Shown here: piece after piece, positions 8,143-41,809 of the stretch | Layout: every line of letters begins with the position of its first letter | Numbering within the stretch: position 1 is the first letter of the stretch | Source of the DNA: Roseivirga sp. | Lineage (GTDB): Bacteria; Bacteroidota; Bacteroidia; Cytophagales; Cyclobacteriaceae | Reading direction: 5' to 3' | Assembly: GCA_029262895.1 (NCBI GenBank) | Contig: JAJCYM010000091.1 | Location: 1-60,103 of the forward strand | DNA: 60,103 nt | Position numbers and translations under genes: made by a program | Notes under the pieces: generated by a model | What the model was told of the DNA's origin: nothing | What the model saw: the letters and a program-made list of their open reading frames with translations, nothing else | The model's database searches: none

Positions 8143-8992
8143 TTCGCTTATTCACAATACACCTTATTGATGATTTGCCGTAAAGAGACTTCGGTAGATA
8201 ATAGTTGAGTCTGAACCCTATTCTGACGTAGGAGTCGTTAGTCCCATTGCCTCTTAGGTCACCTGCAGCGGCAGGAAGGAGTCCTATCTCTGGTCGTCTG
8301 TCTGATAGCTGAGCCGCTATTGGATCGGCAAATGAAATAGGATCACGGTAAACTCCGTTAACATCATCCAAATAACCTGTAAGTGTCATATTGTATTGAG
8401 CTTCAATCTGTAAGTCCACAAGACGATTTACAAACAGATTAAGGCCAAGCCCAACCGGTATAACCACGGCTAGAGTGCCGTAATCTTCTCCTTCTAACCT
8501 TAAGGGTCTTAGTTGAATATCTGAGCCATTTAAAGTGGCTTTAGGATTATTTGAGGTGACTCCCGCTCCGAGCATGAAATAAAGATTACCAAATGCCCTG
8601 TCCTTATAACCGCTGTATGGCAGAGGGCTTAAATAGTACAAGGCCTGAACTGTGAACTCAAAATTTGTCGCTTTGAATGAGAGGTTTCTTGTCTCGCGTT
8701 CTAATACAGGTGCCAAGGCGTCATCTCCTTTGATGCTGTACATCGAAAGATTTCCCCGTAGGGAGATGTTTCTTGAGGAGCGTAGAAAGTGCTCATAGCC
8801 AAGTGTAACCCCAAGTCCTGCCTGGAAATTAGGATCTCTCAGCTCTCTTAATTCTCCGTTGTAGATATTAAAATTAACCCCGAAAGAAGCTTTCGATGTT
8901 CTATCAAAGTCTCCCGTGGTCACATATTGCTGTGAATAAGAGAGATTGAATAGCAATAAGGCGGTAGATATTAGTAGTCCCTTTTTAATCAT
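8135..8992 (-). CDS. DUF6089-type outer-membrane beta-barrel protein (second copy)
   Basis: 285 residues with a signal peptide (MIKKGLLISTALLLFNLSYSQ) and a mature part of repeated amphipathic strands ending in a VRIGFRLNYYLP strand. It is a paralogue of the protein encoded at 5001-5906, sharing NLSFKA, TSNNPKA, LRPL and the segment around DPIAAQLSDR. Function is unknown; a structural or assembly role at the outer membrane is inferred from the fold. Like its paralogue it ends inside the last 8 bp of a convergent gene. Confidence 0.85.
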   Translation of the reverse strand: MIKKGLLISTALLLFNLSYSQQYVTTGDFDRTSKASFGVNFNIYNGELRELRDPNFQAGLGVTLGYEHFLRSSRNISLRGNLSMYSIKGDDALAPVLERETRNLSFKATNFEFTVQALYYLSPLPYSGYKDRAFGNLYFMLGAGVTSNNPKATLNGSDIQLRPLRLEGEDYGTLAVVIPVGLGLNLFVNRLVDLQIEAQYNMTLTGYLDDVNGVYRDPISFADPIAAQLSDRRPEIGLLPAAAGDLRGNGTNDSYVRIGFRLNYYLPKSLYGKSSIRCIVNKRTR

Positions 8993-9077
8993 TTATCCTT
9001 GTTAGGAGGGTATTCAAAACACTAAAGTTAAAAGTTAAACGCAAAAAAGTGTCATTTATTTAAAGCATTTGGATAAT

Positions 9078-9194
9078 TCATCTTGTGAACCCCTGATTTA
9101 TTGAATCCACGAATTCCTGGTATATCTGAATTGTCTGTTCTGGATCATCCTTATTCGTCCCCGTTTTGACTGCTTCCATTTCTTTGTTAAACAT
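9078..9194 (-). CDS. Possible small protein (38 residues), unrecognised
   Basis: A short open frame beginning MFNKEMEAVK and ending GFTR, rich in charged residues and glutamine, with protein-like composition. The same frame stays protein-like (AELDEI) for nine codons upstream to a TAG, so a TTG start overlapping the start of the divergent transporter gene is possible. No homology is recognised and no clear ribosome binding site is seen; it may be a chance frame. Confidence 0.2.
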   Translation of the reverse strand: MFNKEMEAVKTGTNKDDPEQTIQIYQEFVDSINQGFTR

Positions 9195-9214
9195 TATTTC
9201 ATCTAATTCGGCCA

Positions 9215-10066
9215 ATGCTTTCTAAAGGCGTGAAATATATGTTGTTGTCTACTTTTCTCTTCACATTGATGAATGTGGCGGTAAAGTATGTTCCCCATAT
9301 TCCTGCCATTGAGATTATTTTGTTCAGGTCGGTTGTTTCGTTTTTCATGTCGGGAGTTGCTCTAAAGGTGCAAAAAGTGCATCCGCTGGGGAAAAATCGT
9401 AAAGTGCTCTTGATGCGTGGCGCAGCTGGTTCCGTTGGCTTGATTTTGTTTTTTACCATCCTTCAGGAAGTTCCTTTGGCCAGTGCTGTTACCTTAATGT
9501 TCATCTCTCCAATTTTTACAGCGATCCTGGGTATTTGGATTGTTAAAGAAAAGGTGAACCCAATTCAGTGGTTATTTTTCATTTTGTCTTTTCTTGGTAT
9601 TGTTGTGATCAAAGGGTTTGATTTTAGAATCTCTCCTTTGATGGCCCTTGTGGGGCTTGGGGGTGCCTTCTTTTCGGGGATAGCCTATAACATGATACGC
9701 AAGCTTAAAACCTCAGAACATCCCTTGGTGGTTGTGTTTTACTTTCCCTTGGTTACACTGCCCATCGCAGGGATTTATTCTGCTTTCAATTGGGTGATGC
9801 CCAAAGGTTTGGATTGGCTTATTCTATTGGCAATAGGGGTGCTTACACAGTTAGCACAGTACTTTATGACCAAATCATACCAATCTGAGGAACTGGCCAA
9901 AGTTGCCCACCTCAACTTTATTGGAATACTGTATGCCCTGGTATTTGGGTATGTGCTTTTTCATGAAACTTTTAATTTTATGACATATCTTGGCATGACG
10001 TTGGTGATTGTTGGTGTGATATTGAATATTACATATAAGTCAAAACGATCTCAATTGAAGAGTTAA
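9215..10066 (+). CDS. EamA/DMT-family transporter
   Basis: 283 residues, almost entirely hydrophobic, with about ten transmembrane helices in two repeats of the EamA domain. The first begins KGVKYMLLSTFLFTLMNV and the second around residue 140 (SPLMALVGLGGAFFSGIAYN). Members export amino acids, nucleosides or other small metabolites; the substrate cannot be read from sequence. I keep the ATG at 9215 because the KGVKYMLLS segment right after it is conserved in the family. The PhzF gene begins two bases after its stop, so the two are cotranscribed. Confidence 0.9.
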   Translation: MLSKGVKYMLLSTFLFTLMNVAVKYVPHIPAIEIILFRSVVSFFMSGVALKVQKVHPLGKNRKVLLMRGAAGSVGLILFFTILQEVPLASAVTLMFISPIFTAILGIWIVKEKVNPIQWLFFILSFLGIVVIKGFDFRISPLMALVGLGGAFFSGIAYNMIRKLKTSEHPLVVVFYFPLVTLPIAGIYSAFNWVMPKGLDWLILLAIGVLTQLAQYFMTKSYQSEELAKVAHLNFIGILYALVFGYVLFHETFNFMTYLGMTLVIVGVILNITYKSKRSQLKS

Positions 10067-10068
10067 GT

Positions 10069-10863
10069 ATGAAACTTTATCAGGTAGATGCTTTTACAAA
10101 GAAGGTTTTCAGTGGAAATCCGGCTGCGGTCTGCATTGTTGACAAGGATCTTTCAGAAACAGAAATGCAAAGTATAGCTGAAGAGATGCACCTCTCTGAA
10201 ACAGCTTTTGTAAGAGTTTATGGGAAACATTGTAATCTCCGTTGGTTTACACCAAATGCAGAGGTTAGGCTCTGTGGACATGCTACCCTGGCCACGGCTT
10301 TTATTCTTTGGCAAGAGGGGTATTGGCCAAGCGAAAAGAAAATAGAATTCAGCACCTTGAGTGGGCCGCTTTTTACATCGTTAAATAAGAATGGAAGTGT
10401 TAGCATGGATTTTCCTGCTACCATTCCTGAGAAAGACGAGAGTTTTGATAAGATGCCCATGGAAGAGGAGCTAGGTGGGTTGATTAAGGAGGTGCTCAGG
10501 ATTCCGAATGAACTCATCCTGATTATGAGTGATGTCGAAAAGCTTAAGAGGGCCAAACCCAATCCGGTATTTATCGGTGAGCAAGCAAGAAATGGCGTCA
10601 TGATTTCAGGCTGGTCAGATAAAGAAGATTTTGATTTTGTATCCAGGTATTTTGCACCTAACCTGGGAATAAATGAGGATCCTGTCACCGGTTTCATGCA
10701 TACCATCTTAACACCATATTGGAGTAAAGTTACCGGGAAAACCAAATTTAATGTTCGTCAAGCCTCAGCCAGAGGAGGTAAAATGGCAACAGAATTGACG
10801 GGAGATCGGGTGATTTTAACTGGAGATGCCATTAAGGTATTTCAAACGGAGATTGATATATAA
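10069..10863 (+). CDS. PhzF-family isomerase/epimerase-like protein
   Basis: 264 residues. The N-terminus VDAFTKKVFSGNPAAVC and the segment LSETAFV carry the conserved PhzF pattern; the family's catalytic Glu lies in MHLSETAF. RWFTPNAEVRLCGHATLA and the C-terminal GINEDPVTGFMH are further hallmarks. PhzF proteins have a diaminopimelate epimerase fold. No phenazine genes are near, so this is one of the many PhzF homologues with an unknown small-molecule substrate. It forms an operon with the EamA exporter, which may share that metabolite. Confidence 0.92.
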   Translation: MKLYQVDAFTKKVFSGNPAAVCIVDKDLSETEMQSIAEEMHLSETAFVRVYGKHCNLRWFTPNAEVRLCGHATLATAFILWQEGYWPSEKKIEFSTLSGPLFTSLNKNGSVSMDFPATIPEKDESFDKMPMEEELGGLIKEVLRIPNELILIMSDVEKLKRAKPNPVFIGEQARNGVMISGWSDKEDFDFVSRYFAPNLGINEDPVTGFMHTILTPYWSKVTGKTKFNVRQASARGGKMATELTGDRVILTGDAIKVFQTEIDI

Positions 10864-10868
10864 TCCGA

Positions 10869-11060
10869 TTATGGGTTTGTTGGTACTCTGCCAGCACCTC
10901 TACAGATATCGCAAGTTTCTTTAGTCCTATTCAAAGTCCAATAACCCTTTCCTCCACATTTGCCACACCTCTTGAAATCAGAAGGTTGGAATACTCTTTT
11001 TAATAGGAAATAACCTACCATGAGAATGAGAATAAAGAAGGCAAGGCGGATGAGTCCCAT
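10869..11060 (-). CDS. Small membrane-anchored protein with DnaJ-like CxxC motifs
   Basis: A 63-residue protein. Residues 4-21 are a transmembrane helix, followed by two Cys pairs, CGKCGGKG and CDICRGAG, spaced like one zinc-binding repeat unit of the DnaJ central domain. It presumably folds around one zinc ion next to the membrane. There is no J domain. It converges with the PhzF gene (5 bp apart). Function is unknown; a redox or chaperone accessory role is only a guess. Confidence 0.75.
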   Translation of the reverse strand: MGLIRLAFFILILMVGYFLLKRVFQPSDFKRCGKCGGKGYWTLNRTKETCDICRGAGRVPTNP

Positions 11061-11129
11061 TTGGATTTTTGTCTAAAATTAAATGCCGCAGATTGCTCTG
11101 CGACACTTCTCAGGAAGGATGAACGAAAA

Positions 11130-12047
11130 TTATTTTACGTTGAACGAAAATCGTCCCATTTCATAGGTGTCAGACAAAATGATGATTTTATGCTCTCCCT
11201 TTGCAAATTCAGAACCCTTATCATATACAAAGGAGAGTTCTTGTTTGGTGTTGTCAAAGAGTATTTCCTGAACTGATGTGTAAAACTGCTCTTTTCCATC
11301 AACTTGAAAGGAGCCTGAACCTCTTGCCACATCAAATACCACATTTCCTGCCGGGTCAACAACCTGTATCATAATCTGATGACCTGCAACCGGAGCAACC
11401 TCATTGTTGGCTATATTAAATGTGACTTTTACTTTTTGCGCTTGCCTACTTCTAAAATCTCCTTCGCGCTCCTTGCCACGACTGTTGATGTTAAACACCC
11501 TCATATTCTCTGCCTGAAGCTTTGACGCCAGTGAAATTTGTTGTTGGAGTTCACGCTCTCGGTCGCTGGCTTTATTAATGGTAGCGCTCAACTGGTTTTT
11601 CTCAACCTTCAAGTCATTGTTTTCAGAAAGCAATTCCGTATTAATAACTTTTAACTGCTCTATTTCCACATCCTTAGCCACCAAAAGTTGCTCATAGCCA
11701 GTGACTTTGCGGTCGAGTCTTTGAATCAAGGCCTTGTTGGCCCTTCTGGTTCTTTGGAGTTGATCCCTTTGTGAAATAATAGAGTCTTTCAAGTGAACCA
11801 GGGAGTCAATATTGCCACCTAAATCCGCAATCTCAGTAATTCGATCACTGAGTTCAATGCCGATACTGTCGAGCTTTGAGGTTAATTCGAACTTTGTAGT
11901 ATCAAATTCGGCCTGCAGCTCTGCTTTGGCCTGGCTATCAGAATAAATCTTATATGCGCCACCGGCCGCCAAAATGATAATGACCGCGATTAAAACAATT
12001 CTTATTTTATCTTTTGACTTAGATTTCGGTTGTTCACTTCCGTCCAT
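11130..12047 (-). CDS. Membrane-anchored coiled-coil protein, function unknown
   Basis: 305 residues in three parts: a short basic cytoplasmic tail (SKSKDKIR), one transmembrane helix at about residues 17-35, a long heptad-rich coiled coil at about 40-190 (for example ELLSENNDLKVEKNQL), and a beta-rich C-terminal domain from about 205 (VKVTFNIANNEVAPVAG) to the end. The C-terminal domain should face the periplasm. I recognise no named family. It stands alone between the small zinc protein gene and a divergent methyltransferase gene. Confidence 0.8.
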   Translation of the reverse strand: MDGSEQPKSKSKDKIRIVLIAVIIILAAGGAYKIYSDSQAKAELQAEFDTTKFELTSKLDSIGIELSDRITEIADLGGNIDSLVHLKDSIISQRDQLQRTRRANKALIQRLDRKVTGYEQLLVAKDVEIEQLKVINTELLSENNDLKVEKNQLSATINKASDRERELQQQISLASKLQAENMRVFNINSRGKEREGDFRSRQAQKVKVTFNIANNEVAPVAGHQIMIQVVDPAGNVVFDVARGSGSFQVDGKEQFYTSVQEILFDNTKQELSFVYDKGSEFAKGEHKIIILSDTYEMGRFSFNVK

Positions 12048-12156
12048 TCTACTAACTATTTAGTTGAATTCTATTTATTTAACGCCTACGGCATAATTTA
12101 TTGGGCGAAGTACTAAAAACTTTTTTAAATATGCCAGTGAATAGGAAGCAAGCATT

Positions 12157-12744
12157 TTGGAATTGAAACTAGATCAAAACTATTGGAGCGAGAGATATGA
12201 AACTGGCCGGTTAGGCTGGGATATAGGTTATGTTTCCACCCCACTGAAGGAATACATTGATCAGCTTGAGGATAAGACAATTAAAATACTTGTTCCGGGC
12301 GCGGGTAACTCCTATGAAGCAGAGTATTTATGGAACTGCGGATTCATGAATACCCATGTTCTTGATATTTCAAGTGAACCATTGGAAAACTTAAAAGAGA
12401 GGGTACCAGAGTTTCCTCCAGGGCAATTGCATTGTAAGGACTTCTTCGATTTTCATGGTGAGTTTGACCTGATACTAGAGCAAACCTTTTTCTCGGCCCT
12501 TGACCCGAGTTTGAGGAAAGAATACGCCATACAAATGCTGAGCTTACTGAAACCCAAGGGAAGGTTGGCGGGCTTATTGTTCAATATTCCCCTTTTTGAT
12601 GACCATCCACCTTTTGGTGGAAATAAGGAGGCGTATCAGCTGCTATTTCAATCTCACTTTGAGATTGAAATACTTGAAAAGGCTTATAACTCCATCCCGG
12701 AGCGAGCTGGATCGGAGGTCTTTATTAAATTCAGAAAGGCTTAA
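12157..12744 (+). CDS. Class I SAM methyltransferase, thiopurine S-methyltransferase (TPMT) type
   Basis: 195 residues. The N-terminus (WSERYETGRLGWDIGYVSTPL) is the TPMT-family signature and ILVPGAGNSYEAEYL is the SAM-binding motif I; EQTFFSALDP follows. The family methylates thiols, selenium or tellurium compounds; the natural substrate here is unknown. No ATG is in frame near the conserved start, so a TTG at 12157 is used, with AGGAAG eight bases upstream. Its last four bases overlap the convergent methyltransferase gene. Confidence 0.85.
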   Translation: MELKLDQNYWSERYETGRLGWDIGYVSTPLKEYIDQLEDKTIKILVPGAGNSYEAEYLWNCGFMNTHVLDISSEPLENLKERVPEFPPGQLHCKDFFDFHGEFDLILEQTFFSALDPSLRKEYAIQMLSLLKPKGRLAGLLFNIPLFDDHPPFGGNKEAYQLLFQSHFEIEILEKAYNSIPERAGSEVFIKFRKA

Positions 12745-13514
12745 TACTTAAGAATCAAATCCGTTTTAGGAAAGACGGTTTTAAAAAACAAGATTCCAGC
12801 TTCATAAAGATCAATCGAGATGGTTACTTCTTTTTGCCTTTTGATTTCTGTCCATGCCAGATTCATTTCTTTGGACCAATGAATATCATCAATCACAACA
12901 ATGGAATCGGGGTGGAGCTTGGGAAGGAATTGCTGAAAATAGTTTGTTGTTGCCTCGTACCGATGGTTGGCATCTATATAAACAAAATCAATCTCGTTGG
13001 TCTTCGCTAGAAATGTTGTCAAGGTGTCATCGATGTTGCCTTGAATTAAGGTGATGTTACTGGCCTTCTGCTCTTCAAAATTATTGAGTGCCTGCTGAGC
13101 GATAGCCTCTGATCCTTCAAAAGTAAAGATATTGGCATTTTTATTGGCTCTGCTCAGATAGAGCGTGTTTAGGCCGAGAGAGGTCCCCAGCTCAACAATT
13201 GAAGTTGGTTGATGTTGCTGTATCAACTTGAAGAGGAGTTGAGAGAATCGCGGTGGGGTGGAGGCATGCCTGGCGATTTGGCGAATACTGCGTTTATTAG
13301 ATTTAGTCTTCCTGGAGCCAGCACCAAGGTCATTAATATCGAGAATTTGGTGGCTAGAAAGCATACGTTTTCGGAGCTGTTCTATTTCTATTTGGACAGA
13401 AGTACTGTCCCGTTTAATTACTTTCTGATAAAATTCGAAGAGGAAAGGAGAATGTAGGGAGTGATCGTTTACAGCATGGAACCAATAGCGGATATAGGCC
13501 AGAATTTGGTGCAA
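12741..13514 (-). CDS. Class I SAM-dependent O-methyltransferase-like protein
   Basis: 257 residues. The SAM-binding motif is in IVELGTSLGLNTLYLS, the acidic ribose-binding end in IFTFEGSE, and DFVYIDANHRYEAT gives the metal-site-like DANH segment of the catechol O-methyltransferase group. The N-terminal 80 residues (NDHSLHSPFLFEFY) are characteristic of a Bacteroidota subgroup annotated only as methyltransferase. Substrate unknown. It begins five bases after the apaG stop, so it is the second gene of an apaG operon. Confidence 0.85.
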   Translation of the reverse strand: MHQILAYIRYWFHAVNDHSLHSPFLFEFYQKVIKRDSTSVQIEIEQLRKRMLSSHQILDINDLGAGSRKTKSNKRSIRQIARHASTPPRFSQLLFKLIQQHQPTSIVELGTSLGLNTLYLSRANKNANIFTFEGSEAIAQQALNNFEEQKASNITLIQGNIDDTLTTFLAKTNEIDFVYIDANHRYEATTNYFQQFLPKLHPDSIVVIDDIHWSKEMNLAWTEIKRQKEVTISIDLYEAGILFFKTVFPKTDLILKY

Positions 13515-13519
13515 AAGAG

Positions 13520-13906
13520 CTAATTAAGAATGTAAGGTACGATCATAGAGAATTCAGGAATGATCACCTCAAAGTGTTTGCCATCCACGATTTTCTCCAT
13601 GATATAAACACCATGCATTTTGCCCATTCCAGAGCGAAGATTACAGCCAGATACATATTGATGTGTTTCGCCTGGTTCAAGCACAGGTTGTTGTCCAACC
13701 ACACCATCTCCTTCCACCTCTCGCACGCTATTGTTTGCGTCATGTATGAACCAATGTCTGCGCTGCAATTTCACAGTATGGTCCCCGTGATTTTCAATGG
13801 TAATTCTGTAAGTGAAAACATAGTGCATCTGAGTCGGACTGGAATACTCCGGTTGGTAGTTGGTTTCTACACTTACTTTAACCCCTTCTGTGATGGCTGT
13901 TACCAT
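13520..13906 (-). CDS. apaG: ApaG domain protein
   Basis: 128 residues forming the single fibronectin-III-like ApaG domain. Visible marks are RITIENHGDHTVKLQRRHWFI, the glycine-rich GDGVVGQQPVLEPGE and SGMGKMHGVY. The protein has been tied to cobalt resistance and magnesium efflux genetically, but its biochemistry is not settled. Length is normal. It is followed closely by a methyltransferase gene and stands divergent to ung. Confidence 0.93.
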   Translation of the reverse strand: MVTAITEGVKVSVETNYQPEYSSPTQMHYVFTYRITIENHGDHTVKLQRRHWFIHDANNSVREVEGDGVVGQQPVLEPGETHQYVSGCNLRSGMGKMHGVYIMEKIVDGKHFEVIIPEFSMIVPYILN

Positions 13907-13982
13907 GCTTTTTTTAAATTCACTTCAGTGATTTAAAGTTATAGATTAGTTTTATAAATGCTAATTCAGAAATAAAAAATCG

Positions 13983-14645
13983 ATGGCAGTAAAAATAGAG
14001 GAGAGTTGGAAGAAAGTGCTCCAAGAGGAATTTGAAAAAGAGTATTTTGTTAAACTCATTGACTTTGTAAAAAAGGAATATGCATCGCAGCAGATTTTTC
14101 CTCCTGGCAAAGAGATTTTTAGGGCATTTGATAAATGTGGATTTGATAATGTGAAGGTTGTGATCCTTGGTCAGGATCCATATCATGGCCCAGGGCAAGC
14201 TAATGGTCTTTGTTTTTCTGTCAGAGACGGTATTCCCACTCCGCCTTCATTGGTGAATATTTTCAAGGAGATTAATAAAGACTTGGGAAAAGAAATACCG
14301 GCTGGCGGTAGTTTAGACAGGTGGGCCGATCAAGGGGTGCTTCTCCTAAATGCGACATTGACGGTAAGGGCCCATCAAGCCGGATCGCATCAAAACAAGG
14401 GATGGGAGCAGTTTACCGATGCAGTAATTGCGAAATTGGCGAAAGAAAGGACGGGTATAGTTTATTTTCTTTGGGGCTCTTATGCACAAAAAAAGGGGAG
14501 TATTATTAACTCAGAGTCTAATCTTATTTTAAAATCACCCCATCCCTCACCGTTGTCTGCACACAGAGGATTTTTTGGTAATGGACATTTTACCAAGGCC
14601 AATAATTACCTGAAAAGTCAGGGCCATGAAGAAATTGATTGGTAG
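13983..14645 (+). CDS. ung: Uracil-DNA glycosylase, family 1
   Basis: 220 residues. The catalytic water-activating motif GQDPYHGPGQANGLCFSV places the key Asp at D65, and the C-terminal HPSPLSAHRGFFG motif provides the catalytic His and DNA-intercalation loop. It removes uracil from DNA in base-excision repair. Length is that of the bacterial enzyme and all key residues are present. It stands alone between apaG and dapB. Confidence 0.97.
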   Translation: MAVKIEESWKKVLQEEFEKEYFVKLIDFVKKEYASQQIFPPGKEIFRAFDKCGFDNVKVVILGQDPYHGPGQANGLCFSVRDGIPTPPSLVNIFKEINKDLGKEIPAGGSLDRWADQGVLLLNATLTVRAHQAGSHQNKGWEQFTDAVIAKLAKERTGIVYFLWGSYAQKKGSIINSESNLILKSPHPSPLSAHRGFFGNGHFTKANNYLKSQGHEEIDW

Positions 14646-14687
14646 TCAAGGTTTGCCTATGGGATGAGACCATTTTTTAAACCCGGG

Positions 14688-15404
14688 TTATACCTCCAAA
14701 AAATCCTTCATAGACAACACTCCCTTTTTATCCTTTATCCATTCCGCTACTGCCAGTGCCCCAGAGGCAAATCCCAGTCTGGAATGGGCCGTGTGCTTGA
14801 TTTCAATTGCATCAATATCCGAATCATACTTAATTATGTGAGTGCCGGGAGTTGGGTCAACCCGTTGAGATTCTATAGGTACTTCATCAGGCGTTGCAGT
14901 TTGGCCTTCAGTCCACTTCGATACGCTATCAAGTTGTTGAATCAAACCCTCAGCTAGGGTAATAGCAGTGCCGCTTGGCGCGTCTAGTTTTTGGGTATGA
15001 TGAACTTCTTTAATAGAAGGCTTATAAGTCGCGTGTTTATTCAACATTTCGGCTAGCACTTCATTTAGTTTAAAGAAGATATTGACACCAATGCTGAAAT
15101 TAGAGGCAAATAGGTAAGTTCCGTTTTTTGAGAGGCAATACTCGTCAATTTCAGACTTTAGGTGTGACCAACCCGTGGTGCCTACTACTACCGGTAGCTG
15201 TCGGTCCAGGCACCATTTGATATTGTCTATTACGGAATTAGGATTGGAAAATTCGATGGCCACATCAATGGTGGTTGAATCAATGTCATTCAATTTATTG
15301 AGATTGCTTGACTGTATTTTCTCAACAATATGGTGCCCCTTTTCCAAGGCCAAACCTTCGATGATTTGCCCCATTTTACCATATCCTAAAAGCAGAATGT
15401 TCAT
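14688..15404 (-). CDS. dapB: 4-hydroxy-tetrahydrodipicolinate reductase
   Basis: 238 residues. NAD(P) is bound by GYGKMG at residues 7-12; VVGTTGW and the catalytic HHTQKLDAPSGTA motif are present. It reduces the product of DapA in the lysine/diaminopimelate pathway, feeding peptidoglycan. It is slightly short, as usual in Bacteroidota. The start overlaps the DUF5683 gene by four bases, placing it last in the visible UPF0173-parAB operon. Its stop TAA opens the palindrome TAACCCGGGTTT. Confidence 0.96.
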   Translation of the reverse strand: MNILLLGYGKMGQIIEGLALEKGHHIVEKIQSSNLNKLNDIDSTTIDVAIEFSNPNSVIDNIKWCLDRQLPVVVGTTGWSHLKSEIDEYCLSKNGTYLFASNFSIGVNIFFKLNEVLAEMLNKHATYKPSIKEVHHTQKLDAPSGTAITLAEGLIQQLDSVSKWTEGQTATPDEVPIESQRVDPTPGTHIIKYDSDIDAIEIKHTAHSRLGFASGALAVAEWIKDKKGVLSMKDFLEV

Positions 15405-34954: not shown

Positions 34955-36061
34955 TTATTCTATGATAACTCGAGGAGCATTTTTGAGAAAACCTTCATCC
35001 ACCTCAAGTCCTAGACCTGGCGTGTCCGGTAGTTTAATCTCCCAGTCAGGTTGATATTGCATTCCACCAATTATAGGGTCGGCTTCCATAAATAGGGGAC
35101 TGTCAAAGTCAAAATACTTCACAAGGTCAGTGGTATGCGCCAGGTGGCAATTCGCGGTGAACAGGAGGCGTGATTCCAGAAAACCTCCGATTTGCATTTC
35201 GACACCTGCTTTCTCAGCCTCTTTGATAATCTCTTGTGCTTTCACCAGGCCGCTGGATTTGCCCAGCTTGATATTGAAATAATCACAGTGTTGTCCTCTG
35301 ATTAATTTTTTAGCGTCATAATGATCAGACAAACATTCATCTGCCATAATTTTGATTGGGCTTCCATTGCGCACCTTCTTAAGTCGGAAGTAGTTTCTCT
35401 TGTTGATGGGCTCTTCGCAATACTGAATGTTATATGGGGACAGTTCTTCCAGAGCCTTAATGGCCTCCTTAACCTTCCAGCCCTGGTTGGCATCGATCCG
35501 GATTTTGATGTCATAACCAACCGCCTCCCGAATGGCCTTAATGCGTTCGACATCCTGTGCCTCTCCATCACCAAGTTTGACTTTCATAATTTGGAAACCA
35601 GCTTCTTTAACCTTCAAAGCATTTTCAACCATTTCCTCAATGGAGGAAACCCCAACAGTGTAGTCAGTATAGATTTCCTTTCTAATGTCACCGCCCAGGT
35701 ATTTGTATAGTGGTACCCCTTGAACTTTTGCCGCAATATCATGCATGGCAGTGTCCAGAGCACACTTGATAATTGTATTGCCGTAAATCACCTGATCCAT
35801 CAATGCGCTGTTGTCTGCCAGTGCGGTCGGATCCTTTCCAATTAGTTGCCGACTTAAGAGTTTTCCAATTGCAAAACAGGTTTCAATAGTTTCTCCGGTG
35901 ATTCTGGCATGTGGTGACCCTTCTCCCCAGCCATGCACCCCTTCATCGGTTCTGATTCTGACATAGACATTATCTGCAGTATTATGAGAACCCAAGGAGG
36001 TAGTAAAAGGCTGCTTAAGCTTGAGAGCCGCGTGGTAGATTTCTATTTGGTCAATTTTCAC
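34955..36061 (-). CDS. Dipeptide epimerase (enolase superfamily, mandelate racemase/MLE group)
   Basis: 368 residues. The capping domain (about 1-120) precedes the barrel domain: the first catalytic lysine is in the KVK motif (IMKVKLGDG), metal ligands are Asp in RIDANQGW, Glu in YCEEPI and Asp in ADECLSD, and the second catalytic Lys is in IKLGKSSG. The pattern fits L-Ala-D/L-Glu-type epimerases used in murein peptide recycling; substrate range is uncertain. It starts with GTG at 36061, with no in-frame ATG nearby. It lies just downstream of the SRP RNA gene. Confidence 0.9.
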   Translation of the reverse strand: MKIDQIEIYHAALKLKQPFTTSLGSHNTADNVYVRIRTDEGVHGWGEGSPHARITGETIETCFAIGKLLSRQLIGKDPTALADNSALMDQVIYGNTIIKCALDTAMHDIAAKVQGVPLYKYLGGDIRKEIYTDYTVGVSSIEEMVENALKVKEAGFQIMKVKLGDGEAQDVERIKAIREAVGYDIKIRIDANQGWKVKEAIKALEELSPYNIQYCEEPINKRNYFRLKKVRNGSPIKIMADECLSDHYDAKKLIRGQHCDYFNIKLGKSSGLVKAQEIIKEAEKAGVEMQIGGFLESRLLFTANCHLAHTTDLVKYFDFDSPLFMEADPIIGGMQYQPDWEIKLPDTPGLGLEVDEGFLKNAPRVIIE

Positions 36062-36136
36062 GGCTGAAAAATAGACAAAAAAATAAGGGAAGCAATTGGA
36101 AAATATGCCGGAAATGTAAGATTAGGGCATAAAAAA

Positions 36137-36230
36137 AGGCATCAGGATGTCGCACCGCTACAACCACTTACCCTTGCTCTGTTCCCAGCCTGGGGGAGTT
36201 CAGTAGGAGCTAGTCGCATCCCTCTGCCGA
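36137..36230 (-). ncRNA. ffs: Bacterial small SRP RNA (4.5S-type)
   Basis: On the minus strand the stretch holds GAACTCCCCCAGG, a GGAA tetraloop and AGCAAGGGTAAGTGG, the conserved apical arm of helix 8 bound by Ffh. The outer arm is closed by AGGGATG near the 5' end against CATCCT near the 3' end, and a T run (plus 36131-36137) ends it. The loop-closing pairs are UG/CA around GGAA, where I recall CC/GG in relatives. The 5' end is approximate, set by the -7 element at 36234-36241. It partners Ffh in co-translational protein targeting. Confidence 0.82.
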
Positions 36231-36233
36231 GTG

Positions 36234-36241
36234 CAAAGGTA
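36234..36241 (-). promoter_or_regulatory. -7 element TACCTTTG of the SRP RNA gene
   Basis: Exact TAnnTTTG on the minus strand immediately before the RNA, placing the start a few bases further on, near 36229. No clear -33 TTG. Confidence 0.5.
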
Positions 36242-36386: not shown

Positions 36387-36725
36387 ATGTCAACCAAAGT
36401 AATTATTAAGGAAGGCACTGAGGTCATCCATGTCAAGGTGAGTGTGACAGAGTTAAACGAATGGGTATGTTCTTATATATCGTCATTTAATGGGGAACAC
36501 AAGCGGAATTCTGAAAATCAGGATATTATCGAACTTGGCAACGGGGCAGAAATGATTGGTAGAATTGATAATTGGAGGTTTCTAGTTGAAGGTGCTAGCA
36601 AGGATACCTTGATGACAGTAACATGGTTTCAAGGAGGTGAAATGGTTGGACAAACATATCACGAAGGAAAACCTGAAATTCACATCTATGATGGCACCTG
36701 TGAATTTAAAATCAAAGGGGCATGA
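36387..36725 (+). CDS. Small hypothetical protein, first gene of the protease cassette
   Basis: 112 residues, no signal peptide, no membrane helix. It is beta-rich with several short strands (KVIIKEGTEVIHVKVSV, DNWRFLVEG, LMTVTWFQGGEMVGQTYH, PEIHIYDGTCEFKIKG). I recognise no family. The stop codon overlaps the start of the next gene by four bases (ATGA), so the two are translationally coupled. Given its neighbours it may be a cytoplasmic partner of the protease encoded two genes later; this is inference. Confidence 0.75.
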   Translation: MSTKVIIKEGTEVIHVKVSVTELNEWVCSYISSFNGEHKRNSENQDIIELGNGAEMIGRIDNWRFLVEGASKDTLMTVTWFQGGEMVGQTYHEGKPEIHIYDGTCEFKIKGA

Positions 36726-38026
36726 GACGAAATATAACTATGACGTTTGCGGCATGCTTTTTCATAACCCAGATGTCGTTTGGACAAGAAGAATCCAGCG
36801 TGGATACTAGTACGATTAAAGAGGTGAAGTTAACTGATTATTATATCGATCTTGCTATACCGGACAATGGTATCTCGAATCTTATACAAGTTGATTTCTC
36901 ACAAGTAAAGAACCTGAATAATCTCAAAGACTTTGCGATTCAGGTATTTGATGGTGGTGATAATGCCGAATCAAAAGGAATAGGTGCAGAGTTTAGCTTA
37001 GGGCATTTATTTGTTAAACGTGACAATCGTACTCTGGAAAACTACCGATATGGCAAGAATGGATATCGATTATTAAGGAACCTACGTCCGTTAGTTGGTT
37101 TTACCAATTCTGACAAGGGAACAAACCTAGCGGTTGGACTGAACTTCAATCTTATTAATAAAGCTGATTATTATCTGAATGGGGCGGCTTCTCAATTGAT
37201 TAGAAGCAAGCTTGACGGGGCAACAGAATCGGAATTTAGATTGAGCTACTCAAATGAAGCCACCATTATTAATAGGAGTCTTGGGTCAATATCAGGAGCT
37301 GAAGATTGGGAATTTAGCGATAACTACTCCTTAGCGGCTGAGAATGAAGTATCTGAGGAGGTCCATAAAACAATAATTGAGGGCATACAAAATTCAGAAC
37401 TTTCAACACAGGACAAACAAAAGTTAATACTTCTTATTGATAAATTTCGAGACAATTTGAACGAGTATTTGGGGAACAAAAAAGAAACAGATTCGCAATT
37501 GGGGAAGAGTCTGGATGAAATCAAACAGCTATACAACCAACAAAATTGGAATGCCAAATTTCTTACTGCCAATGGCGGAATTCTTTGGAACTCAACCGAC
37601 CAAAAGATCAAAAATCTCAAAGCCAAGAAATGGCAGTTTGCTATGGCCTATGGTACTCCTATTAAAGATAAATCTCAATTGTTATTCACTGTACGGTATT
37701 CGGGAAATATTGAAGGTCGGAGTCTGATGGAAACGGATGGAACGCAAACCGATGAAGAACAAAATACATTGTTTTATGGGGCACGTTTCCTTACCAAACT
37801 CAATAAAAAAAAGGCCCCAATGACAGCCAACATCTTTATTGAAGCCGGTAATACTAGGACTACCTTTTTTAATAGAGACTTTAAAGAAGAGCTTAGAGGA
37901 GTTTTGGGAATAGAGGCAAAGATATTTGAAGGGACATGGATTCAGACCGGAGTTGCCTTTCAAGGTGGTGGAGCTACCTTTCAAATAGATTTTAAGCACG
38001 CATTTGTTGAAAAATCGAGATTTTAA
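36722..38026 (+). CDS. Predicted outer-membrane protein of unknown family
   Basis: 434 residues. A signal peptide (MRRNITMTFAACFFITQMSFGQ) is followed by alternating beta strands typical of a barrel (GIGAEFSLGHLFV, LAVGLNFNLI, WQFAMAYGTP, LLFTVRYSG, ANIFIEAG, FQIDFKHAFV) and the chain ends in Phe, a common outer-membrane insertion signal. The middle (about 215-270) is helical and charged, perhaps a periplasmic or extracellular insertion. No named family is recognised. It is coupled to the small gene upstream and lies 11 bp before the protease gene. Confidence 0.75.
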   Translation: MRRNITMTFAACFFITQMSFGQEESSVDTSTIKEVKLTDYYIDLAIPDNGISNLIQVDFSQVKNLNNLKDFAIQVFDGGDNAESKGIGAEFSLGHLFVKRDNRTLENYRYGKNGYRLLRNLRPLVGFTNSDKGTNLAVGLNFNLINKADYYLNGAASQLIRSKLDGATESEFRLSYSNEATIINRSLGSISGAEDWEFSDNYSLAAENEVSEEVHKTIIEGIQNSELSTQDKQKLILLIDKFRDNLNEYLGNKKETDSQLGKSLDEIKQLYNQQNWNAKFLTANGGILWNSTDQKIKNLKAKKWQFAMAYGTPIKDKSQLLFTVRYSGNIEGRSLMETDGTQTDEEQNTLFYGARFLTKLNKKKAPMTANIFIEAGNTRTTFFNRDFKEELRGVLGIEAKIFEGTWIQTGVAFQGGGATFQIDFKHAFVEKSRF

Positions 38027-38037
38027 ATGAAAAAACA

Positions 38038-38883
38038 ATGTTTATTGAATTAGAAGATAAGATATTCCAAGAGGTGGATATGCTTAGACAGTTTCGAGAA
38101 TTAAGAGATGAGCTTAATCGACTAGAAAAGACTAAAGGCAATTCGGCAAAGGATTTTCAGTTCGAACCTTTTTGGAACCATATCAAGGAGCAATTTTCTC
38201 CGAGATTTCCGGACCTCAATAATGAATACAAAGGCTGTGTCTACTTAATTAAAAAAATAGATGGTTGTCATCAACAGGACTTTCTAGGCTCGGGAGTTTT
38301 GGTTGATAATCAGCAGGTTCTAACTGCTCACCATGTGGTTGAAGATTGCCTTGATGATCAGGGTGATTTGATATCAGGAGCCGAAATTGAAGTGGTATTT
38401 GATCGAGTAAATATGAACCACCAAACGGGACAAGTAAGGTCTGTCAAGGCTATTGTTGAAAACGGTCGTTCGACTGAAGGAGCCGACTTTATTTACTTGG
38501 AGTTGGATGGGGCCTTGGATCTATATGGCTTTGAACTTCCGGAACTGATCGACATGGATGAGCTATCGGATTTGGATGAATTAATAGCCGTGGGCTATGG
38601 ATATATTAATCCTTATAGCACTACTGAGTATGGAATCAGAAGAGTATCTGTAGGAAAACTAATTAGTGAAGAACGGGGCCAACAGTTGAATGCCACTCTC
38701 TGGGGCTTCAATCCAAGTTGGGATATACTCACCAGGAACGATAATTATCATATGATCGCAGATAACGATAGTGGCGGGCCTTTATATGTGAATACCCCCA
38801 ATGGACTGAAAGTTATAGCAATTCACCGTCAAATAGATGATAATTCAAAAGTTAATATGCACACAAAAATTAAAATGACATGA
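38038..38883 (+). CDS. Trypsin-like serine protease (S1 family), no signal peptide
   Basis: 281 residues. A helical N-terminal part of about 60 residues (MLRQFRELRDELNRLEK) precedes the protease fold. The triad is complete: H99 in LTAHHVVEDC, D150 in EGADFIYLEL, and S245 in NDSGGPLYV, with the oxyanion glycine. No signal peptide or membrane segment is present, so the protease is predicted to be cytoplasmic, unlike DegP-type relatives, and it lacks a PDZ domain. It overlaps the next small gene by four bases. Its substrate is unknown; the flanking small proteins are candidates. Confidence 0.85.
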   Translation: MFIELEDKIFQEVDMLRQFRELRDELNRLEKTKGNSAKDFQFEPFWNHIKEQFSPRFPDLNNEYKGCVYLIKKIDGCHQQDFLGSGVLVDNQQVLTAHHVVEDCLDDQGDLISGAEIEVVFDRVNMNHQTGQVRSVKAIVENGRSTEGADFIYLELDGALDLYGFELPELIDMDELSDLDELIAVGYGYINPYSTTEYGIRRVSVGKLISEERGQQLNATLWGFNPSWDILTRNDNYHMIADNDSGGPLYVNTPNGLKVIAIHRQIDDNSKVNMHTKIKMT

Positions 38884-39239
38884 ACAAAATAACAAAAGCA
38901 AGACTCATCGTAAGAGTCGAAAAAGTTGGAGATGGTAGCTTGGGACTGGCCAACATCTTTTTCAAATTGTCTGAGGCTAATTTGGTAATTGGGAGAATCG
39001 AATGCAAACCGCTAGAGAATAACCCCTTGGTTATAATACTGGAGATTTACATAGCCGAAGTAGGGAACAAAGAAGACAATGTCTATGGAGGTCTGAGGGT
39101 AAATAAGGGCTGGAATCACTTACCCCATTTATTTGAATTCTCCAATGATGAACCTGGATCTGAATTGAGGGTCTTTATAAGGGGGACTGGTGTAGGTAAT
39201 GGATCAAGTGGAACCGTTAAAACTAATCCAAGACCTTGA
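38880..39239 (+). CDS. Small hypothetical protein coupled to the protease gene
   Basis: 119 residues, no signal peptide. Mostly beta strands (ARLIVRVEKVGDGSLGLANIFFKLS, LVIILEIYIAEVG, SELRVFIRGTGVG) with a glycine/serine-rich, disordered C-terminus. Unrecognised. It overlaps the protease stop by four bases. Like the first gene of the cassette it is small and beta-rich, and the two may play similar roles (regulator, adaptor or substrate of the protease), though they share no obvious sequence. Confidence 0.72.
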   Translation: MNKITKARLIVRVEKVGDGSLGLANIFFKLSEANLVIGRIECKPLENNPLVIILEIYIAEVGNKEDNVYGGLRVNKGWNHLPHLFEFSNDEPGSELRVFIRGTGVGNGSSGTVKTNPRP

Positions 39240-39300: not shown

Positions 39301-41184
39301 ATGTTCGTTTGCCATCGACATATTAGAATAATGTGTGGCTTGGTCATTATCGTAGCGTTTGAATCGCTTGCTTTTGGCCAATCCACTAGAGCTTCTGCAT
39401 TGGAGAAAATTCTTCTGTCGGATACATTGACGGGTTTAAACAGAGGAGAAATTCTTGTTGAGCTTGGAAAGGAATATGTCCGCTCCAATGAACCAGTGAA
39501 AGCTACGACAAAATTTGAACTAGGCTTAGACCTGTTCAAGACTGATAAAAGAATATATCTCAGAAATCTGGAAGAAGTGGGCTATGTTTTTTCTGATGAG
39601 GGAAAACTAGCCATAGGTATTGAATATCTTCTTAGGGCCATGGAGTATGCAGAGTCGGAGGAGATAAAAGATAGGGAAATTCGTATTCTGTGTAATATTG
39701 GAAACATCTATGTGGACTATGATCAAGATACATTCGCTCTGGATTATCTAAATCGCTCTAGACAAAAGACCTTGGAATATGGGGATCTTGATTTTTTGAA
39801 ATACATCGATTACTCCAAGAGCGGGCTCTATATAAATATGGTAATTTCCGATTCAGCTATTTTTTATTTGAATCGCTCCTATAAGGCATATTTGGAAGAA
39901 AACGATATCCAAATGCTGATCAATATCTATAATAGCCTTTCGCTAATACATAAAGGAAAGAAGCGTTTGGATAGTGCTCAATATTGGATAGAAAAATCAA
40001 TAGAGAACGAAATCAGATATCCGGATTATGCAGATTTGGGAATATCATATTTCAATTACGGCAGAATTCTTATTGATAAGAAAGATTTCAAAGCGGCCAA
40101 GAGAGAGTTATTGAAATCGCTCGATGAAATTAAAACGGATAGCACTGGTAACTGGCGAAGAAACATGGCCAGGACATTTTTTGGGTTAGGTCAGGCTGAA
40201 GCCGGGTTAGGTGACTACAAAAAGGGTTATGAATACTTGATTGGCTACGATTCGATTTCCACAAAATATGAAAATGAAGTAGTCAGTAATAGAATTGCTG
40301 AACTAACAGCCAGTGCTGAAAGATTCAGAATAGAAAGAGAACGTGACCTCAATAAATTTCAACTTGAAAAAGAAAAGCAAAAAAACATGATAATCATTAT
40401 TGTGTTGATCGTCATTGTACTGTTTGGTGTATTTTGGATATACTCTAATGAACAGAAGAAAAAGACACTTAGAGACTTGGCTAAGAGAAACCAACAACTC
40501 GCCAACCAAAAAATCAACGATCTCCTCCAACAACAAGAAATCCATTCCTTACAAGGAGTTTTAGTTGGACAAGAAACTGAAAGAAAACGCATTGCCGGAG
40601 ATCTTCACGACAAACTCGGAGCTATTCTCTCCATGGTCAAACTTCACTTTAGTGCTGTTGAAGAACGCCTTGATGCTGTAAAGACAGATAACCGCAAACA
40701 GTACGAAAAGGCAAATGAGTTGCTGGATGAAGCAGCTTCTGAAGTCAGAAATATTTCCCACAACCTGATCTCGGGAGTGTTAACGAAGTTTGGCCTTGTA
40801 CCAGCTTTAAAGGATTTAAAAGAGACCGTGGAGTCTACGGGAAAACTCAACATACAGCTCATTGTGAACGATATGGTTGAACGGCTAAATGGCGAACAAG
40901 AGCTTCAGCTTTATCGCATTATTCAAGAGCTAATTAGTAATATTTTGAAGCACGCCAACGCCACAGAAGCAGTAATTCAGCTCAATCGCATCAATGGTCA
41001 ATTCAATCTGATTATCGAAGACAACGGTATTGGCTTTGATGTAGAGGCCGTCAAGTTGAAGGATGGTATTGGATTGAAGAATTTGGAAGCAAGAGTCAAT
41101 AAATTGGAAGGAACTTTGCATTTTGACACAGGCAAAGGTGCCGGCACAACTGTCTCTATCGATATCCCATTAGAAGATGATTAG
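39301..41184 (+). CDS. TPR-containing sensor histidine kinase (NarX/DesK-type)
   Basis: 627 residues. A signal or membrane segment at the N-terminus (MCGLVIIVAFESLAFGQ; an ATG at 39331 is an alternative start) is followed by a periplasmic array of tetratricopeptide repeats to about 340, a coiled coil, one transmembrane helix (about 361-381), another coiled coil, the HisKA_3 domain with H436 in RKRIAGDLHDKLGA, and an HATPase domain (IIQELISNILKHANA, GIGLKNLEARV). It overlaps the response-regulator gene by 8 bases. The ligand is probably a protein or peptide bound by the TPRs; this is inference. Confidence 0.93.
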   Translation: MFVCHRHIRIMCGLVIIVAFESLAFGQSTRASALEKILLSDTLTGLNRGEILVELGKEYVRSNEPVKATTKFELGLDLFKTDKRIYLRNLEEVGYVFSDEGKLAIGIEYLLRAMEYAESEEIKDREIRILCNIGNIYVDYDQDTFALDYLNRSRQKTLEYGDLDFLKYIDYSKSGLYINMVISDSAIFYLNRSYKAYLEENDIQMLINIYNSLSLIHKGKKRLDSAQYWIEKSIENEIRYPDYADLGISYFNYGRILIDKKDFKAAKRELLKSLDEIKTDSTGNWRRNMARTFFGLGQAEAGLGDYKKGYEYLIGYDSISTKYENEVVSNRIAELTASAERFRIERERDLNKFQLEKEKQKNMIIIIVLIVIVLFGVFWIYSNEQKKKTLRDLAKRNQQLANQKINDLLQQQEIHSLQGVLVGQETERKRIAGDLHDKLGAILSMVKLHFSAVEERLDAVKTDNRKQYEKANELLDEAASEVRNISHNLISGVLTKFGLVPALKDLKETVESTGKLNIQLIVNDMVERLNGEQELQLYRIIQELISNILKHANATEAVIQLNRINGQFNLIIEDNGIGFDVEAVKLKDGIGLKNLEARVNKLEGTLHFDTGKGAGTTVSIDIPLEDD

Positions 41185-41809
41185 AGTATTTATAACAGAC
41201 GACCATGAACTCGTAATTGATGGTATAAGGTCAATTCTGGAAGGGGTTGAGGGAATTGAGGTAGTTGGAGCAGCTTTGGGAGGAAAAGAGACGCTATCTC
41301 GATTAAAGGAGCTTGACGTTGATGTGCTCTTATTAGATATTAACATGCCAGAAATGGATGGTATTGAAGTGGCCAGGCAATTGATAAATGAAGAGAGTCC
41401 TGTGAAGATTCTTGTGCTGTCAATGCACAATAACCCCCAGTTTACTAAACAACTGATTGAAATAGGAGTGCTTGGTTGCCTTTTGAAGAATTCCGGCAAA
41501 AAAGAAGTGATTAAGGCAATTGAAGATGTTTATGAAGGCACGCGAACCTACGGAGCGGATGTGACGAACAAGTTGTTTGACAGTATTGACAGAAGCAAAA
41601 AGGCAGTGGAGAAGGTAGAACTGACCAAGCGAGAGATAGAGGTTTTAAAGCACATCGTCAATGAATACACCACGGGTGAGATTGCTAAAAAACTCTTTAT
41701 AAGCCCCCACACTGTAGAGACTCACAGAAAGAATCTGTTAAGCAAATTAATGGTGAAGAACACAGCAGGCTTAGTACGTTTTGCGGTTATGAACGACCTG
41801 CATCTCTGA
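41177..41809 (+). CDS. NarL/LuxR-type response regulator
   Basis: 210 residues. The receiver domain has TDDHELV and phospho-acceptor D54 in VLLLDINMPEM; K at LLKNSGKKE completes the pocket region. The C-terminal LuxR helix-turn-helix is at about 145-205 (LTKREIEVLKHIVNEYTTGEIAKKLFISPHTVETHRKNLLSKL). It forms a two-component pair with the overlapping kinase gene. Candidate targets are its own operon and the protease cassette upstream. Confidence 0.95.
   Translation: MIRVFITDDHELVIDGIRSILEGVEGIEVVGAALGGKETLSRLKELDVDVLLLDINMPEMDGIEVARQLINEESPVKILVLSMHNNPQFTKQLIEIGVLGCLLKNSGKKEVIKAIEDVYEGTRTYGADVTNKLFDSIDRSKKAVEKVELTKREIEVLKHIVNEYTTGEIAKKLFISPHTVETHRKNLLSKLMVKNTAGLVRFAVMNDLHL

Follow-up and report, generated by a model that had tools for sequence, protein, structure and literature searches.

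A four-gene run inserted beside a two-component pair in Roseivirga combines a trypsin-fold protease with a recurrent pair of a small protein and a predicted outer-membrane barrel

The window analysed here is a stretch of 60,103 nucleotides from Roseivirga sp. (contig JAJCYM010000091.1), and the element of interest is a run of four co-directional genes encoding a small beta-rich protein (p1), a predicted outer-membrane barrel, a trypsin-fold protease and a second small protein (p4). As the first-pass annotation of this DNA had described, consecutive genes are spaced by a 4-bp overlap, an 11-bp gap and another 4-bp overlap; all four have ATG starts and no internal stops. A histidine kinase gene and a LuxR-type regulator gene continue on the same strand 61 bp beyond the end of p4, and the kinase is possibly co-transcribed with the cassette. 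The features of the region, including a small signal recognition particle (SRP) RNA gene, are as follows.

36134..36235, reverse strand: small SRP RNA (RF04183; Rfam, 71.2 bits), the left anchor of the insertion site
36387..36725, forward strand: p1, small beta-rich protein of 112 aa, module A (hidden Markov model (HMM), 17.1 bits; all-beta model)
36722..38026, forward strand: predicted outer-membrane barrel of 434 aa with a signal peptide, module A (family searches; low-confidence model)
38038..38883, forward strand: signal-less trypsin-fold serine protease of 281 aa, module B (Pfam Trypsin, PADLOC LmuA, catalytic triad)
38880..39239, forward strand: p4, small orphan protein of 119 aa, module B (no family, PDB or convincing genome match)
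39301..41184, forward strand: TPR histidine kinase (HisKA_3, HATPase_c; Pfam), an older neighbour that adjoins the SRP RNA in same-genus loci
41177..41809, forward strand: response regulator of LuxR/NarL type, 56–71% identical to the same-site regulator in eight same-genus genomes

The four genes are an accessory insertion beside a two-component pair that is met at this site in other genomes of the genus as well. From a set of 18 other genomes of the genus, 11 stretches were fetched, eight of which have the kinase and regulator beside the small SRP RNA; the remaining three (L130–L132) retain the left neighbour, an epimerase gene, with no kinase beside it. The SRP RNA and the kinase are present in all eight two-anchor loci, and in seven of these the site is empty, the RNA–kinase stretch measuring ~350–410 bp and holding no such genes, compared with ~3.07 kb and four genes in the window. 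In the sister species G008 this stretch is ~2.05 kb long and holds two genes, one for a trypsin-like protein of 298–307 aa (25% identical to the window protease across 219 aa) and one for a 131-aa protein that follows it, with spacings of 13 bp (protease) and 12 bp (kinase). The order protease, small protein, kinase thus recurs in G008, and since p1 and the barrel are absent there, they form an extra module in the window. The cassette therefore looks like two two-gene modules, p1 with the barrel (module A) and the protease with p4 (module B), inserted between the SRP RNA gene and the kinase/regulator pair. Its G+C content is unremarkable (38.8%, against 41.2% for the whole window). The plasmid set held no match to the barrel or the protease, and four scans of viral contigs, which detect close relatives only and did not extend to the phage record set, returned no related contig; on these negatives, with that same restriction to close relatives, a phage or plasmid origin was rejected. 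On the other side of the SRP RNA, the aquaporin-like gene that lies beside it in L122–L129 is missing between the epimerase and the RNA in the window (36061–36134).

The set of four is of unusual composition, as the first-pass annotation had held. Pfam and NCBIfam scans of the four proteins gave nothing above cut-off besides the trypsin domain, and p1 and p4 matched no family above cut-off in Pfam, NCBIfam or PADLOC. Weak matches under the cut-off (RMI2 and ORC1_wHTH in Pfam; HAD-IIB, FliT, SecD, DegP and Avs1b in NCBIfam) were disregarded.

The protease bears out what had been proposed for it. Its triad is intact (H99 in TAHH, D150 in GADF and S245 in DNDSGG), a low score on a crude scale of N-terminal hydrophobicity indicates no signal peptide, and Pfam finds no PDZ domain, with matches to Trypsin (36 bits, residues 84–269 only) and Trypsin_2. 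In PADLOC, applied to the four window proteins and the two G008 proteins only, its best match is LmuA (E 4.4e-10), which places it nearest to proteases of defence systems; the G008 protease also matches LmuA (E 5.6e-5). The histidine in VIAIH of the window protease presumably resembles that of glutamyl-endopeptidase; the G008 protease lacks it. At E 0.001, no relative besides the window protease itself was found in 59 relatives, in 247 genomes of the phylum or in 35 barrel-bearing genomes, the last of which gave one weak partial match (E 0.013). A scan of the species-genome collection by short exact patterns gave no relative, and a PDB sequence search returned nothing within its limits. The search of the 59 relatives missed the diverged G008 protease, which was found later by position; diverged relatives therefore escape these searches. 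For p4, 36 genomes yielded no convincing relative (one match at E 0.09) and PDB sequences nothing within limits. It corresponds by position to the 131-aa protein of G008, with no significant sequence similarity. Membership of p4 in the p1 family was rejected, p4 being absent among the matches shown for six group HMMs; the strand pattern is similar by eye.

The expectation that the four genes would stay together across Bacteroidota did not hold: the protease searches, which diverged relatives escape, and the p4 search revealed no second set of the four, no second locus with a trypsin and a barrel was found, and the foursome as one conserved unit was rejected. The conserved part is the pair of p1 and the barrel. 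Searching the 247 phylum genomes with the barrel turned up a single true relative, in G222 (E 7e-5); a second match, inside a 1,720-aa open frame (L004), was discounted as spurious with no closer look. Barrel profiles then matched in 6 of 150 genomes of the family of G222, in 19 of 395 genomes of the class and in 25 of 390 genomes of the order, the last two figures including the window's own genome and all three including genomes already known. A barrel sub-alignment searched against the species-genome collection by short exact patterns recovered just two loci already known. BLAST places the window barrel nearest to L093 (E 4e-9), L018 (1e-5) and L015 (2e-4), and phmmer places it nearest to L093 and L096.

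An open reading frame (ORF) of 100–165 aa immediately precedes the barrel in 33 of 47 loci, compared with 15 of the 272 other large ORFs that these loci contain (P = 2e-22, a value that overstates independence, as related genomes are counted apart and control starts are those of the longest ORF). The near-identical L107 and L108 are both counted among the 47; the L057 barrel, whose start was set by hand, was kept out of the barrel alignments, and leaving it out here too gives 32 of 46. L017 also has an upstream small ORF, outside the length filter, which brings the total to 34 of 47 loci with proteins of 112–151 aa, and in 15 of those 34 the small-protein and barrel genes overlap by 4 bp. The two are fused in one ORF in L101 (G998) and L105 (G970), and in L018 (G416) the C-terminal part of a PAP2/vanadium-haloperoxidase-like protein encoded directly upstream of the barrel resembles the small proteins of L093 and L096. 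With 34 upstream proteins, two barrel fusions and one haloperoxidase fusion, a small protein or domain is thus present at 37 loci. The window locus is one of them, having a barrel-family match and, directly upstream, a small protein of the same subfamily.

Several barrel loci depart from this pattern. The fusions in L101 and L105 have an unusual topology, with a hydrophobic, signal-peptide-like segment in mid-ORF between the small domain and the barrel. L057 (G778) has a stop codon within the barrel match (about 9347–10408) and is possibly a decayed copy. Ten loci have no small protein (L087, L088, L089, L092, L094, L041–L043, L107, L108); several of them follow a kinase/LuxR-type regulator and secreted proteins, and these loci are perhaps a functional offshoot.

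The barrel assignment keeps the status of a prediction. The window protein has a signal-peptide-like N-terminus ending in SFGQ, an AlphaFold2 model from three sequences shows 12 long strands and a helical insert at a mean predicted local distance difference test score (pLDDT) of 48, and the final Phe is indeed present; that Phe is not a feature of the family, occurring in 3 of 46 barrel relatives (window included), with an aromatic residue within the last four positions in 12 of 46. The Gln of this N-terminus (Q22) is conserved in at least 90% of a 24-member barrel alignment, as would be predicted from the Q-rule described for Bacteroidetes signal peptidase I substrates in the available text of PMC5837995. 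The residue before the Gln is small in all 46 barrels, a count that stands without a background rate for comparison. A hydrophobic N-terminus by the crude score was seen in 38 of 46 barrels, a threshold also passed by 3 of 37 small proteins. Pfam found nothing above cut-off in 24 barrels (the other 22 lay outside the scan), a PDB sequence search with the 24-barrel profile gave nothing within limits, and the model was judged too poor for a fold search.

For p1, the description as a small beta-rich protein agrees with an all-beta structure model, itself of low confidence (pLDDT 60), with which a PDB fold search reached a best E of 0.35. Against an HMM of the L093 and L096 proteins and the haloperoxidase domain, p1 scores 17.1 bits, above all 7,600 shuffles (best 15.6). 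Of 22 small proteins scanned with Pfam, p4 included, three had one weak match each, and a 22-row profile, again with p4, found nothing within limits among PDB sequences. The earlier suggestion that the small proteins are partners of enzymes holds for the p1 subfamily to the extent that one of its domains is fused to the haloperoxidase in G416; a link of p1 or p4 themselves to the protease would be an extension of this. In two genomes that belong to different families, the small protein is closely preceded by related proteins of 121–122 aa, helical by eye (L047, 8371–8736; L048, 7934–8296).

One reading of these data is envelope maintenance, in which an outer-membrane barrel would have a translation-coupled cytoplasmic helper and the protease would serve as a stress regulator. 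The gene order with its 4-bp overlaps, the loci where the pair stands alone and the barrel loci that lack the small protein and adjoin secreted proteins are all consistent with it. We nevertheless think it improbable, as a sporadic distribution and an empty site in sister species are unlike housekeeping, the small domain is fused to a haloperoxidase, and the 24 barrels scanned have no Pfam family.

Enzymes or wall-binding proteins lie beside the pair in 16 of the 37 loci, the window among them, and 9 of 37 have peptidoglycan-active or peptidoglycan-binding proteins. All the assignments listed here come from Pfam.

Window: trypsin
G222: astacin and Amidase_2
G438: CHAP (below cut-off) and PG_binding_1
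G321: M15, Amidase_2 and M19
G376, G922 and G337: patatin
G416: PAP2 haloperoxidase
G314: PG_binding_1 protein (weak ground, a peptidoglycan-binding domain only)
G479: M15_4 and PG_binding_1
G742: VanY (below cut-off) and DUF6603, function not assigned (weak ground)
G693: GH108 and an nSTAND1–leucine-rich repeat (LRR) protein
G991: two Amidase_2 proteins
G045: endonuclease/exonuclease/phosphatase and FAD_binding_4
G922: phage lysozyme
G988: Lactamase_B
G341: caspase and amidohydrolase (beyond the 350-bp rule given below, still within the 16 of 37)

By crude hydrophobicity, with a few starts chosen by eye, 22 of 25 neighbouring enzymes scored (G008 protease included) have no signal-like N-terminus; the Lactamase_B protein and the caspase are clear exceptions. 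Families were tallied among genes near the pair (131 of 133 genes, two having exceeded a residue limit, with a gap rule of 350 bp) and among far genes (132 drawn of 372, of which 127 were kept after five that overlapped or were part of cassettes had been taken out). The near proteins include 9 response regulators, 9 GerE, 8 HATPase_c, 6 HisKA_3, 5 Patatin, 4 PG_binding_1 and 3 Amidase_2 matches, whereas the far genes have 4 matches to the response-regulator family, and the far families with at least two matches do not include GerE, HisKA_3, Patatin, PG_binding_1 or Amidase_2; as each tally stops at the 25 commonest families, any of these may still have one far match. The near set is without the G222 cassette and parts of G341 and G600 (overlapping ORFs picked, or gaps >350 bp) and includes kin, as L087, L088, L089 and L094 come from one genus and L088 and L089 from one genome.

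A family of membrane proteins of 350–530 aa also stands beside the pair in five loci (L017, 10389–11822; L056, 10105–11160; L090, 5354–6568; L102, 6538–7647; L103, 5819–7417), and the two members scanned alone had no Pfam match. The DUF6603 protein of the G742 cassette (L056, 2813–6220; E 2.8e-121) belongs to a family of which the literature search found no mention. In L058 (G693; reverse strand, about 8576–14886) an nSTAND1 NTPase with LRRs and a Pfam-less protein lie upstream of the GH108 lysozyme, the small protein and the barrel, and this locus may connect the pair with STAND conflict systems.

Such neighbours bear on an intracellular defence role, in which p4 or p1 would silence the protease, infection would free it to cut a cytosolic target (abortive infection), and the barrel would be a surface sensor or decoy. 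With an LmuA-like protease in the window, and in G008, this role has to be kept in play; the lack of a signal peptide, the accessory insertion at a variable site, and the relative loci with an nSTAND1-LRR NTPase and GH108 lysozyme (one) and with a caspase (another) point the same way. Set against these are the lack of any NTPase or nuclease match among the window genes scanned with Pfam, a protease that is unfused to LmuA, Avs1 or HamA, and identified neighbours in relatives that are more often peptidoglycan enzymes or patatins than proteins of defence type, PADLOC having covered the window and G008 proteins only. On balance we consider defence an unlikely explanation, if one to be taken seriously.

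It is also conceivable, and in our view doubtful, that p1 with the barrel and the protease with p4 are unrelated cargo that reached one insertion hotspot and share nothing beyond a promoter. G008 does have a protease and small protein at this site without p1 and the barrel, many genomes have a p1-like protein and barrel with no identified enzyme, and the trypsin–barrel combination is known from the window locus alone. The 11-bp spacing of barrel and protease argues for a closer relation, as do the different enzymes close to the pair at other loci and the fusions of the small domain to an enzyme and to barrels.

The reading that we tentatively prefer is an accessory effector cassette with envelope-directed, exchangeable enzymes, in which the pair couples a signal-less enzyme to the outer membrane; the cassette is perhaps lysis- or export-like. 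This reading builds on what was observed, namely the gene pair, its fusions, the enzymes and regulators found in excess close by, and an insertion where sister species have an empty site. In module A the barrel would sit in the outer membrane and p1 would be a small cytoplasmic, enzyme-side adaptor linking a signal-less enzyme to it; we assign these roles mainly because fusions occur on both sides of the small domain. Module B would supply the enzyme, a trypsin-fold protease with p4 as its own small partner, either inhibitor or cofactor. The kinase/regulator pair may turn the operon on, whereupon the protease would build up in the cytosol and act at the envelope, or escape through it, upon a breach. 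In relatives, lysins and small membrane proteins could fill the breach role, as in type 10-like lysis release, and a lysis- or holin-type release is suggested because signal-less lysins and small membrane proteins recur there (compare the available text of PMC10101115). The window locus has neither, so that its protease would need another breach or act inside the cell.

A number of findings weigh against this preferred reading. The kinase/regulator pair occurs without the cassette in seven genomes and is thus not specific to it, and a protease and small protein occur without the barrel in G008. No small protein accompanies the barrel in 10 of 47 loci, and no enzyme was identified in 21 of the 37 pair loci, where not every neighbour was scanned. 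The regulator count comes in part from closely related genomes, and the small membrane proteins of relatives match no holin family, being candidates by size and hydrophobicity only. Both structure models, of p1 and of the barrel, are of low confidence. The small proteins form groups of which some are linked by sequence, their status as a single family being unproven, and those of L044, L047, L095 and L098 link to no group above all shuffles. Finally, p1 has no visible signal peptide, which rules out a straightforward encounter with the barrel in the periplasm.

A broader proposal, which we regard as rather unlikely on present evidence, puts the pair at the centre of an undescribed Bacteroidota system. 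Signal-less enzymes of the cytoplasm, such as lysins, patatins, proteases, nucleases and haloperoxidases, would be interchangeable in it and would be joined to the outer membrane through the small beta domain, their shared tag, which would amount to a new release or deployment route for folded enzymes at the envelope. If true, an unrecognised modular deployment system, with swappable enzymes attacking wall, lipid, protein and nucleic acid, would be present in about one in twenty of the sampled class genomes (19/395). Should nothing but the pair hold up, a Pfam-less barrel family and the small proteins that go with it would still acquire a common gene order, natural fusions and partners that can be tested.

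A literature search, with subscription papers and preprints largely outside it, gave no recognisable description of the p1/barrel pair, and the cassette shares single features with several known systems. Like HtrA/DegP, the window protease has a trypsin fold; it differs in having no signal peptide or PDZ match, and its score for NCBIfam degP_htrA_DO is far under the cut-off. With the Lamassu, AVAST and Hachiman pairs it shares a cytoplasmic trypsin-like protease and a best PADLOC match to LmuA, which makes it a candidate member of their protease lineage. In the available text of PMC12799240, the trypsin-like proteases of those systems are accompanied by a nuclease. The window differs from them in its separate 281-aa protease, which is not fused to LmuA, Avs1 or HamA, and in having no metallo-beta-lactamase-type nuclease immediately upstream, neither the barrel nor p1 giving a Lactamase_B match.

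Trypco–trypsin conflict systems, as presented in the available text of PMC7159879 and PMC8195603, likewise combine a signal-less trypsin domain with a small neighbour. In the Pfam scan p1 and p4 gave no Trypco match at E ≤ 1, the presence of Trypco models in the library being unverified, and the window run (p1, barrel, protease, p4, kinase, regulator) has no MoxR/vWA/VMAP or STAND gene. It does have a predicted outer-membrane barrel, whereas the words "outer membrane" are absent from the main text of both papers. For type 10 secretion and phage-like lysis cassettes, as far as the available text of PMC10101115 and PMC10847048 describes them, the comparison differs between the window and its relatives. 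The barrel of the pair is another type of outer-membrane protein, and the window run is without a peptidoglycan hydrolase, a holin or other small membrane protein, or an inner-membrane channel besides the kinase, which counts against the reading that we prefer. The relatives, by contrast, share with these cassettes signal-less lysins and small membrane proteins, and also a putative outer-membrane component, other enzymes and nearby regulators.

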